Below, one piece after another: positions 40,406 to 44,541 of a stretch of 64,000 nucleotides of DNA. Each line of letters begins with the position of its first letter. Position 1 is the stretch's first letter. A program made the translations under genes and the position numbers. Source of the stretch: a bacterium BMS3Bbin10 (GTDB taxonomy: Bacteria; Pseudomonadota; Alphaproteobacteria; Rhizobiales; Methyloligellaceae); NCBI GenBank assembly GCA_002897995.1, contig BDTT01000083.1, positions 1 through 64,000 of the forward strand, given 5' to 3'. The notes under the pieces were generated by a model, which saw only the letters and a list, made by a program, of their open reading frames with translations, was not told the origin of the DNA and made no database searches.

Positions 40406-41314
40406 ATGGAACCGCCTGCCACCTTCAATGACCGGCTCAAAGCGTGCGCGGACCGGATAAGTCCCGCGGAGCAGCGCGTGGCCCGGTTTTTCCAGGAGAA
40501 CCGCGAAGAGGTTCTCATCGCCTCTGCCAGCGCGCTCGCACGCCAGGCCGGCACCAGCGACGCGACCGTGGTTCGCACGGCCAAGGCTTTGGGGTTTTCC
40601 GGCATGGAAGAGTTGCGGCGCACGCTGGCGCGCGAGCTGCGCGAAAACCTGTCCCCCGCCAGCCGGATGGCCCGAACGCTCTCGGAAGTGGGCGATGATC
40701 CGGGATCCGCCCTCGAGGTGACGCTGGATATTCATCAGAAATCCCTTGAGGGCCTGCGCCGCGACATCACCCCGGACCGCTTCCAAAGCGCCATTCGCGC
40801 CATTGCAGGCGCCCGGCGGGTGTTTATCTTCGGGATCGGGCCGTCGGCAGCGATGGCGGATTATTTCAAGGTTCAGCTCGGGCGGTTCGGCATCGACGCG
40901 CTGAGCCTGACGCAGACCGGCCTTCTGCTTGCCGACAGCGTGCAGAAATTCAAGCAGGGCGATCTCCTGATGATCTTCGCCTATGGCCGGGTGTACCGGG
41001 AGTTGCGCGTCCTGCTGGACCAGGCAGACCGGCGCGGGCTCGCAAAAATCCTTTTTTCCGATACGCTGGGCGCGAAACTGCGCGGCCGCGTCGATCTTGT
41101 GCTTCCCGTCGCGCGCGGCCGGGCGGATATGCTGAGCATGCATACCGCCACGCTTGCCCTTATAGAGGCGCTCCTCGTCGGCGTGGCTTCCGAGCGCCCG
41201 AAGGAAACCATCGCCAGCCTTGAAGCGCTGAACAAAGTCCGGACCGCGCTGGCCGGAAAAGAGATGGGCCTGCCGACCATGCAGTCGGGCGCCCGGGGGA
41301 AATCCGGGGTCTGA
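40406..41314 (+). CDS. MurR/RpiR-family transcriptional regulator with SIS domain
   Basis: 302 residues. The N-terminal helix-turn-helix covers about residues 8-85 (SPAEQRVARFFQENREEVLIAS, ALARQAGTSDATVVRTAKALGFSG); the SIS sugar-phosphate-binding domain covers about 125-265 with VFIFGIGPSAAMADYFKVQL and LLMIFAYGRVYRELRVLLDQA. Such regulators sense phosphorylated sugars or related ligands. It is divergent from the MFS transporter, which carries palindromic operators, and is the best candidate to bind them. Confidence 0.9.
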   Translation: MEPPATFNDRLKACADRISPAEQRVARFFQENREEVLIASASALARQAGTSDATVVRTAKALGFSGMEELRRTLARELRENLSPASRMARTLSEVGDDPGSALEVTLDIHQKSLEGLRRDITPDRFQSAIRAIAGARRVFIFGIGPSAAMADYFKVQLGRFGIDALSLTQTGLLLADSVQKFKQGDLLMIFAYGRVYRELRVLLDQADRRGLAKILFSDTLGAKLRGRVDLVLPVARGRADMLSMHTATLALIEALLVGVASERPKETIASLEALNKVRTALAGKEMGLPTMQSGARGKSGV

Positions 41315-41389
41315 AACGGAGGGTTTTCCCGGCCCGTCCGATCCTGTCTGTTTCTCAGGACCTCATTCTTTCTTACTGCTATGGTCAAG

Positions 41390-41410
41390 ATATTACCTTT
41401 AATGTAATAT
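41390..41410. promoter_or_regulatory. palindromic operator before coaBC
   Basis: ATATTAC-N7-GTAATAT is a perfect inverted repeat whose right edge is 6 bp before the coaBC start codon. This position would cover the promoter or ribosome site. Because the encoded protein carries a helix-turn-helix at its N-terminus, it is a candidate self-binding site. Confidence 0.6.
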
Positions 41411-41416
41411 TGAGCT

Positions 41417-42859
41417 ATGAAACTTGTCTCATGGCTCAAGAATAGTGGAATTTCGGCGCGTGAGCTTGCGTCTCGGGTCGAGACCACCGAGGCGACCATC
41501 TCCCGCCTGAAGAACGGCCACGCCCGGCCGTCGCTGGAGCTGGCGCAGCGCATCGCCGACGCCACCGGCGGCGCGGTGACGGCGAATGATTTTCTCGATC
41601 TTGGCCCCCAGGCGGCCTCGCATCCCTCAAACGGGCTGAACGGCGCGCGCATCCTGCTGATTATCTCAGGCGGGATTGCGGCTTACAAATCCCTCGATCT
41701 CATCCGGCGTTTGCGGGAGGCGGGGTGCGGGGTGCGGGTCATTCTCACGCGCGCGGCGCAAGAATTCGTGACGCCCCTGTCCGTGGGCGCCCTGGCCGGG
41801 GCCGCGCCCTACACCGATTTGTTTGACGCAAAAACCGAATTCGACGTGGGGCATATTCGTCTGGCGCGCGACAGCGATCTCATTATCGTCGCCCCCGCCA
41901 CCGCCAGCCTCATGGCGAAAATGGCCAGCGGACTGGCGGACGATCTGGCCACGGCTGTCCTTTTGGCGACAGATACCCGCATTTTGCTTGCGCCCGCCAT
42001 GAACCCGCGGATGTGGGCCAACCCGGCGACCCGGCGCAATGTGGCGCGGCTCGAGGGCGATGGCGTCTTCTTCATTGGTCCAGGTGAGGGAGAAATGGCG
42101 GAGGCCGGCGAGGCGGGTATCGGGCGCATGGCCGAGGCGCCGGAAATTCTCGGCGTCCTCGAAAATCTTGTTGGCCAGGCCGGCGCGAAGCCGCTCGAGG
42201 GCCGCCATGTGATCGTTACCTCCGGGCCGACCCGTGAGCCGATCGATCCGGTCCGCTATATCGCCAACCGCTCGTCGGGCAAGCAGGGCCACGCCATCGC
42301 CGCGGCGGCGGCGCGGGCGGGCGCGGATGTGACCCTGGTGAGCGGGCCGGTCCGGATCGCCGATCCCTTGGGCGTGAAAACCGTTCATGTGGAAACGGCG
42401 GCGGACATGCTGGCGGCGGTCGAGGGGGCCCTGCCCGCCGATATCGCCATCTTCGCCGCCGCCGTGGCCGACTGGCGCATGCGGGAGCAGAGCCGGGAAA
42501 AAATGAAAAAAACCGCCACGGATAACGAAATGAGCCTCGACCTTGTTCAAAACCCGGATATCCTGAAACTGGTGAGCCGGGGGCATCTGCGCCCCCCTCT
42601 CGTCATCGGCTTCGCCGCCGAAACACGGCAGGTGGTTGCCAACGCCGCGAAAAAGCGGCAGGCAAAGGGCTGCGACTGGATTGTGGCGAATGATGTGTCT
42701 GAAGGAACAGGGATTATGGGCGGCGACAATAATCGTGTTTCTCTGGTGACGAAAAGCAGGACCGAGGACTGGCCGGAAATGACCAAGGACAAGGTTGCGG
42801 AAAAACTCATCGCCAGAGCCGCGGAGCATCTTACCGCGCGAGAGGCGGCGGCGGAATAA
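41417..42859 (+). CDS. coaBC: CoaBC with an N-terminal helix-turn-helix: phosphopantothenoylcysteine decarboxylase / phosphopantothenate-cysteine ligase
   Basis: 480 residues in one open frame. Residues 1-62 are a Cro/C1-type helix-turn-helix: [20 protein letters not shown] followed by [20 protein letters not shown]. After a short linker the CoaC flavoprotein domain starts at about 76 ([22 protein letters not shown], then [10 protein letters not shown]), and the CoaB ligase domain at about 260 ([33 protein letters not shown]). The enzyme makes 4'-phosphopantetheine for CoA. Ordinary CoaBC is about 400 residues and has no such domain. There is no good internal start for CoaBC alone. Its stop overlaps the dut start (TAATG). 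Confidence 0.93.
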
Positions 42860-43329
42860 TGTCCCCATCCTCCCTGACCTTGCGCGTTGCGCTGCGCCGG
42901 CTCGAGCATGGAGAAGGTTTGCCCCTGCCCGCATATGAAAGCGGTCAGGCGGCGGGCATGGACCTTTGCGCCGCCCTGCCCGAAGGGGCGCCCCAGACTT
43001 TGACGCCGGGCGCGCGGGCGCTCATCGGAACCGGTTTCGCGCTTGAACTGCCGGAAGGCCATGAAGCCCAGATACGCCCGCGCTCGGGCCTCGCGCTGAA
43101 ACACGGCGTCACCGTGCTCAATTCCCCCGGCACGATCGATGCCGATTACCGGGGCGAGGTGAAAGTGCTGCTCGTCAATCTCGGGGGCGAGCCGTTTGAA
43201 ATCCTGCGCGGCATGCGCATCGCGCAGATGGTCATTCAGCCGGTTTCGCGCGCCGCGCTGGCCGAGGTGGAAGAGCTTACCGGCAGCGCGCGCGGGGCGG
43301 GCGGCTTCGGTTCTACCGGAACCGGTTGA
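42859..43329 (+). CDS. dut: dUTP diphosphatase
   Basis: 156 residues, trimeric dUTPase. Motifs: [38 protein letters not shown] near residue 77, and the flexible C-terminal arm [10 protein letters not shown] that closes the active site. It hydrolyses dUTP to keep uracil out of DNA and supply dUMP. ATG overlaps the coaBC stop, so the two are co-translated. A decayed copy of its 3' end lies at 44418-44518. Confidence 0.96.
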
Positions 43330-44417: not shown

Positions 44418-44541
44418 GCGCAGATGGTGATTCAACCGGTTTCGCGCGCCGCGCCGGCCGAGGTGGAAGAATTTTCGTCAAGCGCGCGCGGGGCGGGGGG
44501 GGGTTGGTTCTACCGGAGCGGCGTGAGGGGTGAAGAGAGGG
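44418..44541 (+). pseudogene. duplicated 3' fragment of dut
   Basis: About 100 bp match the dut 3' end (from GCGCAGATGGT to TCTACCGGA, with about ten changes plus small insertions) and encode [20 protein letters not shown] in the dut frame. The last 20 bp repeat the end of the palindrome behind dut. It has no start and is not a gene; it shows a local duplication. Confidence 0.8.

Follow-up and report, generated by a model that had tools for sequence, protein, structure and literature searches.

To our knowledge, little is known about the transcriptional control of CoA synthesis in bacteria. The locus described here raises the question of why a gene for CoaBC, an enzyme of this pathway, should begin with a DNA-binding domain, and of whether its product could govern its own expression. 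In the sections of PMC7794376 drawn on here, the CoaBC described begins at the CoaC domain, carries no DNA-binding domain, and is controlled through inhibition by CoA thioesters. A preliminary description of the window (the whole stretch of 64,000 nucleotides that was analyzed) proposed that a single frame encodes a Cro/C1-type helix-turn-helix (HTH) and a complete CoaBC, and that the enzyme adjusts transcription of coaBC-dut itself in response to its substrate, CTP, FMN or CoA, much as BirA or PutA would.

The fused gene is indeed a single open frame: the ORF at 41417-42859 (+) starts with ATG and encodes 480 amino acids without an internal stop. Its composition is as first proposed. Pfam places HTH_3 at residues 7-51 (E 1.3e-8; 35.2 bits against a cut-off of 23), Flavoprotein at residues 78-247 (1.4e-31) and DFP at residues 260-443 (8.5e-70), and the NCBIfam CoaBC model TIGR00521 covers residues 74-466 with 406.2 bits against a cut-off of 219.7 (Table 1). 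The CoaBC of M. smegmatis (6tgv) aligns with residues 78-454 of the fused protein. The whole genome to which the window belongs (G000; a draft of 3.18 Mb in 137 contigs) contains one CoaBC match; the enzyme should therefore come from the fused protein, which is expected to be active. Between Met1 and the GGIAAYK motif at residue 85, the sole in-frame ATG, GTG or TTG is the GTG at codon 54, which lies within the HTH, exactly as had been noted.

Table 1. Features of the fused coaBC locus, in coordinates of the window
Feature	Position	Strand	Remarks
Proposed operator dyad ATATTAC-N7-GTAATAT	41390..41410	.	core TTACC-N5-TGTAA at 41393-41407
TG-TAATAT, possible extended -10 element	41403..41410	+	6 nt before ATG; tentative
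HTH domain	41417..41593	+	residues 1-59; HTH helices 14-20 and 25-32; final motif GAVTANDF
Linker	41594..41641	+	about residues 60-75; variable, predicted disordered
CoaBC enzyme	41642..42856	+	CoaC flavoprotein decarboxylase ~76-247; CoaB ligase ~260-466
dut, dUTP diphosphatase	42859..43329	+	NCBIfam NF001862, 199 bits

The preliminary description had suggested a search for the same HTH-Flavoprotein-DFP architecture among relatives, and it is present in 9 of 30 genomes of the family, each with a match that starts from residue 1 (G000, G001, G002, G004-G007, G010 and G012, the gene being divided over two contigs in the last). In the remaining 21 family genomes, 19 matches start at residue 47 or later, one genome (G025) has a C-terminal fragment and one (G003) has no match. 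Among 31 sampled genomes from other families of the order, no CoaBC match begins at residue 1; 30 of them have a match, which starts at residue 25 or later in 29 and comprises the C-terminal end only in G043. Across the genomes sampled in the order, an N-terminal HTH on the cofactor-synthesis enzyme CoaBC is confined to one lineage. Seven fused genes found in named records belong to metagenome assemblies of Hyphomicrobiales or Hyphomicrobiaceae. CoaBC is matched by 61 plasmid records, and the five matches listed start at query residue 64 or 74, without the HTH. A scan of 35 coaBC loci with flanks of up to 1.5 kb revealed no stand-alone HTH gene adjoining an unfused coaBC, its only match (L163) being the fused gene of G012.

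The fused domain is well kept. HTH residues are conserved across the nine fused genomes, dN is below dS for the HTH in all seven pairs computed (0.083 and 0.399, respectively, for L001/L002), and linker dN exceeds HTH dN in 7/7 pairs; judged from these sequence comparisons, the HTH is under purifying selection.

The surroundings of the fusion are also shared. The dut ATG starts at 42859, which is also the final base of the coaBC stop codon, and dut lies 3' of the fused gene in all nine genomes, truncated by the contig end in one of them. The two genes are probably in the same operon and, since the start of one overlaps the stop of the other, control of coaBC would probably extend to dut. Upstream of the fused gene, five loci examined carry what we take, from a motif, to be the C-terminus of a UbiB-like protein. 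With dut on one side and the UbiB-like end on the other, the fusion appears to occupy an older coaBC locus. Two particularities of the window may be mentioned. A gene for an RpiR/SIS-type regulator (Pfam) stands immediately upstream of coaBC at 40406-41314; no tblastn match to it was found within up to 3 kb upstream at the loci of the other eight fused genomes. The 3' end of dut (43222-43329) is repeated about 1.2 kb downstream, at 44418-44526 (87% over 83 nt, followed by 72% over 36 nt), which might reflect a partial duplication or an insertion dividing the region.

If the HTH acts on its own gene, a binding site might be expected close by. The palindrome that had been reported just upstream of coaBC is there, and reads ATATTAC-CTTTAAT-GTAATAT. 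When the nine fused genes are aligned on their ATG without gaps, a consensus dyad TTACA-N5-TGTAA appears at a fixed distance from the start codon: TGTAA, then 9 nt, then ATG is found in 9/9, and the left arm has at least four of its five bases in 7/9, the other two (L005 and L006) having the right half only at the common position. The arms pair at 37 of 45 positions, compared with a mean of 22.4 (sd 1.7, maximum 29) when the left side was shuffled 2000 times and the right side kept; as the nine genes are related, these shuffles overstate independence. In single-gene tests of 100 shuffles each, two of the nine CoaBC dyads reach p <= 0.05. TTACA or TGTAA occurs within 60 nt upstream of all nine fused genes, versus 1 of 32 HTH-less coaBC genes whose start codons were picked by script; this like-for-like comparison concerns counts of the 5-base half-site only, the 6-base half-site having been counted in the controls alone (0/32). 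Conservation of the right half may be due in part to a promoter (-10) element. The extended -10 element of Table 1 would yield a leaderless transcript; a generic scan of 41250-41500 returned no sigma-70 promoter, so that promoter and leaderless start can both be proposed only tentatively.

The core pattern TTACMTWYNATGTAA has one exact match in the 3.18 Mb of the window genome, at the dyad upstream of coaBC, and none at one mismatch. At up to two mismatches there are 32 matches, in which the coaBC site figures once per strand; a reversed control has 20. The single exact copy argues for a dedicated autoregulation, as far as a count based on one pattern can suggest it, operators of different sequence escaping such a count. 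A search of 14 related genomes that allowed up to one mismatch placed exact copies at coaBC in G005, G006 and G007 and a one-mismatch copy at coaBC in G012, so that the pattern reaches coaBC in four of the eight other fused genomes; it misses coaBC in G001, G002, G004 and G010 because the sites there are too divergent from it, and G002 has an exact copy elsewhere than at coaBC. The idea of a regulon around the operator was considered and rejected, the near-matches being little above the control pattern; seven of them were inspected and had no gene or pathway in common. One of these near-matches (G000 C22, before meaB) lies, by eye, just 5' of a HigB-like toxin frame. The same stretch of the window genome (L233, position 1617) contains a perfect palindrome, TTACGTATCACGTAA, between meaB and the HigB-like frame, which is probably a toxin-antitoxin operator.

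What kind of HTH is this, and where did it come from? AlphaFold2 predicts with high confidence a five-helix domain of the Cro/C1 type (mean pLDDT 91.4 over residues 1-64; helices 3-10, 14-20, 25-32, 40-49 and 56-59), followed by linker residues 61-72 with pLDDT below 50. The full-length model, built with 8 sequences, is only moderate (mean pLDDT 72.5), and no quaternary model was therefore derived. When the HTH was used to search PDB structures, no match reached E 0.001; the nearest folds were those of DNA-bound HigA, ClgR, DdrO and CylR2 (TM to the query about 0.72-0.76), DNA-bound HigA having the best E (0.026, with TM 0.74), together with one that we presume to be the 434 repressor domain. 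Eight phage records match the HTH (E 6e-5 to 2e-3), four of them annotated as Cro-like. In Methyloligella halotolerans (L091), a stand-alone HTH gene adjoins a divergent repressor with matches to phage families of the CI type, and two relatives of the HTH match the YdaS profile, below its cut-off. Small HTH proteins of the Cro-like, YdaS-like and HigA types resemble the CoaBC HTH in sequence and fold, but they stand alone or pair with toxins, whereas the latter is fused to a metabolic enzyme. From these resemblances, descent of the HTH from a phage Cro gene is likely.

The same class of HTH is present on other proteins. In named genomes, a search seeded with one peptide pattern of the HTH yielded 200 confirmed stretches. 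The 80 best of them comprise 66 HTH-RibBA fusions, 7 HTH-CoaBC fusions, 3 stand-alone genes and 4 fusions to 2-oxoglutarate dehydrogenase (OGDH) E1, of which three are in Parvibaculum records and the fourth in another alphaproteobacterial assembly; Pfam was applied to one RibBA and one OGDH example, and BLASTP against examples of this kind served to assign the others. Within the order, HTH matches at 1e-5 occur in 121 of 297 genomes, although many of the weakest are probably generic HTHs, and the best 30 loci are 27 RibBA and 3 CoaBC fusions. Matches occur in 40 of 385 genomes of the class at 1e-8 and in 15 of 398 genomes of a sample of the phylum, all 15 within the class of the window. The 43 class and phylum loci divide into 22 stand-alone or unassigned genes, 9 RibBA, 6 glutamine-synthetase (GS)-type and 3 MeaB fusions, and one each with CoaBC, OGDH and a chaperone of the TorD/nitrate-reductase-delta type; Pfam confirmed one GS, one MeaB and the TorD fusion.

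As to their distribution, HTH-RibBA fusions are common in Rhizobiales (Bosea, Methylobacterium, Microvirga, Rhodoblastus, Phreatobacter), with the 66 named loci within L043-L122 (for example, L055 and L061) and 27 more within L123-L152. HTH-OGDH E1 is found in Parvibaculum and relatives (L057-L060, L186), and fusions to the MeaB GTPase occur in genomes of about 1.4 Mb (L199, L202, L205). One contig from a genome of the class carries four stand-alone HTH genes near each other (L210).

A tree of the HTH was calculated for 74 of 138 genes, on only 67 columns. The CoaBC HTHs form one group (support 86/92), and those of the OGDH, MeaB and GS fusions are each grouped as well. The deepest branch as drawn has CoaBC, RibBA, OGDH and TorD on one side, and GS and MeaB, amid stand-alone genes, on the other. 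Partner labels, with stand-alone and other counted among them, need 12 changes on this tree, and we read tree and label changes together as several separate grafts of one HTH class. The residues of helix 25-32 differ among the CoaBC, RibBA and OGDH fusions, and the sequences of the dyad arms differ among the CoaBC, RibBA and MeaB fusions.

Dyads before these genes were examined one gene at a time for the 138 HTH genes that remained once duplicates and those with less than 60 nt upstream or less than 38 bits had been removed. A dyad, for example ATTTCAGTTTGACTGAAAT, precedes many HTH-RibBA genes and stops about 22-25 nt short of the start; 42 of 87 are significant singly (p <= 0.05). Over 69 of these 87 upstream stretches, chosen as non-redundant and including two that are visibly misaligned (L075 and L121), the arms pair in 73.8% of cells, compared with 63.3 +/- 1.2% (maximum 66.9%) in 1000 redeals of the right arms, a comparison made with relatedness uncontrolled and with the dyad centre chosen on the same data. 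At one pair of the RibBA dyad, C-G, T-A and A-T are all used, both arms having changed. The MeaB fusions have a dyad TTAACC...GGTTAA that ends 1 nt 5' of the ATG (p <= 0.01 in two of three, 0.06 in the third), and the dyad of the single TorD fusion has p 0.03. Tested singly, one stand-alone gene out of 22 has a significant dyad, and neither the 4 OGDH nor the 6 GS fusions have one; the best OGDH dyad, TTGCC-N5-GGCAA, is present 5' of the start in two genes and is not significant singly.

How, then, might the fused protein work? We consider it probable, on the strength of these sequence comparisons, that it is a bifunctional CoaBC enzyme whose N-terminal Cro-type HTH would bind the dyad upstream of coaBC and repress the promoter of coaBC-dut. 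Being only 62 residues long, the HTH alone is unlikely to dimerize strongly, and the CoaBC oligomer would present pairs of HTHs, on flexible linkers, to the dyad; the mycobacterial CoaBC is described as a dodecamer in the sections cited of PMC7794376. An HTH bound there would block RNA polymerase, since the dyad shares bases with the presumed -10 region and stops 6 nt short of the start codon. More enzyme would then mean more repression, and the level of enzyme would be held steady. In this scheme we infer the DNA binding, the repression (as opposed to activation), the dimerization driven by the enzyme and any effect of CoA thioesters, CTP or phosphopantothenate on binding. Of the original proposal, the part in which an enzyme adjusts its own transcription thus gains support by comparison (the conserved HTH, the dyad at its own promoter, the half-site in 1 of 32 HTH-less genes, the covarying dyad before RibBA), and the part in which it senses substrate, CTP, FMN or CoA finds no direct support. 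More tentatively, and with some reserve, we suggest that a cassette of some 62 residues with a Cro-type HTH, probably derived from phages, has in Alphaproteobacteria been grafted repeatedly onto the N-termini of metabolic proteins unrelated to each other (CoaBC, RibBA, OGDH E1, MeaB, GS-type and TorD-type), oligomerization of the partner turning it into a gene-specific dyad repressor that would serve as a general homeostat of enzyme amount without a metabolite signal.

Such pure concentration sensing is a serious alternative to gating by a ligand. With gating, the CoaBC part could sense CoA thioesters, or CTP and phosphopantothenate, at the CoaB site and switch binding by the HTH, so that transcription would track CoA status; this would refine the autorepressor reading and is compatible with it, and we regard it as possible, if rather doubtful. 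In the sections cited of PMC7794376, CoA and acyl-CoAs inhibit mycobacterial CoaB (IC50 38-148 uM) and acetyl-CoA competes there with CTP and phosphopantothenate, which makes a ligand plausible by analogy; a precedent is offered by NadR (PMC12421817), which is switched by ATP and NAD. However, the same HTH class is also found on RibBA, OGDH E1, MeaB, GS-type and TorD-type proteins, and a short, variable linker that is predicted to be disordered does not suggest rigid coupling. We know of no ligand shared by these partners, and the want of an obvious one favours pure concentration sensing.

Other readings depart further from autorepression. Cro/C1 proteins can also activate, or regulate other genes, and near-matches of the operator elsewhere in the genomes would suit an HTH that activates its own promoter or acts chiefly on other genes. 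Yet the dyad lies across the start and the presumed -10 region, as is typical of repression, and the numbers for the own genome (32 matches versus 20 for the reversed pattern, one exact and zero with one mismatch) speak against a role at other genes; we find this reading improbable. Still more improbable, in our opinion, is that a deletion joined a prophage Cro gene to coaBC and that the HTH, its relic, serves today as a mere leader or translation start. The Cro-like proteins among its stand-alone relatives (four of the eight phage records) and the HTH gene beside a divergent CI-type repressor in L091 agree with such an origin, but a mere relic fits poorly with purifying selection and residues conserved over nine genomes, with a dyad that is nearly missing where the HTH is missing, and with the presence of this HTH class on other proteins, including RibBA with its covarying dyad. 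Finally, we give hardly any credence to an artefact of assembly or annotation, or to internal initiation that would yield a plain CoaBC. The window does come from a draft in 137 contigs, and weak in-frame start codons exist in the HTH or linker of 8 of the 9 fused genes. The fusion is nevertheless common to nine separate genomes, and an error of sequencing or assembly joining two genes was rejected on that ground. The commonest internal codon, GTG54, is lost in three of the nine (L005, L006 and L008), and L006 lacks in-frame ATG, GTG and TTG codons ahead of the enzyme; an internal start at CoaBC was likewise rejected, no start codon being common to the nine genes.

Enzymes that repress their own genes are known: BirA and PutA, with which the fusion had been compared, do so through a winged HTH and a ribbon-helix-helix, respectively, and their ligands are known. 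These DNA-binding folds differ from the Cro/C1-type HTH of CoaBC, and NadR is a better parallel than either. According to the cited part of PMC12421817, NadR of Enterobacterales is a trifunctional protein in which an HTH (residues 1-57) is fused to two NAD enzymes, and most NadR orthologs outside Enterobacterales are without the HTH; NadR and HTH-CoaBC thus share a small N-terminal HTH on a cofactor-synthesis enzyme and a restriction to one lineage. They differ in that NadR acts on several operons, whereas HTH-CoaBC belongs to the CoA pathway and has one candidate site, at its own promoter. By this analogy, HTH-CoaBC is like NadR in architecture and logic and is not a NadR: its enzyme domains are those of CoaBC. 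BzdR, presented in the cited part of PMC3602430 as a model of an enzyme turning into a regulator, also has an N-terminal DNA-binding domain, a linker and an enzyme-like domain; its shikimate-kinase-like domain has lost its activity, whereas HTH-CoaBC, as the sole CoaBC of its genome, should be active.

Among the open-licence literature matches listed, none describes an HTH-CoaBC or HTH-RibBA fusion, or any other regulator joined to CoaBC. HTH-CoaBC offers a testable putative autoregulator with a defined candidate operator for CoA synthesis. A fusion of this sort would provide synthetic feedback with a compact design, and the recurrence of the HTH would indicate a general, easily built route by which enzymes come to control their own level.
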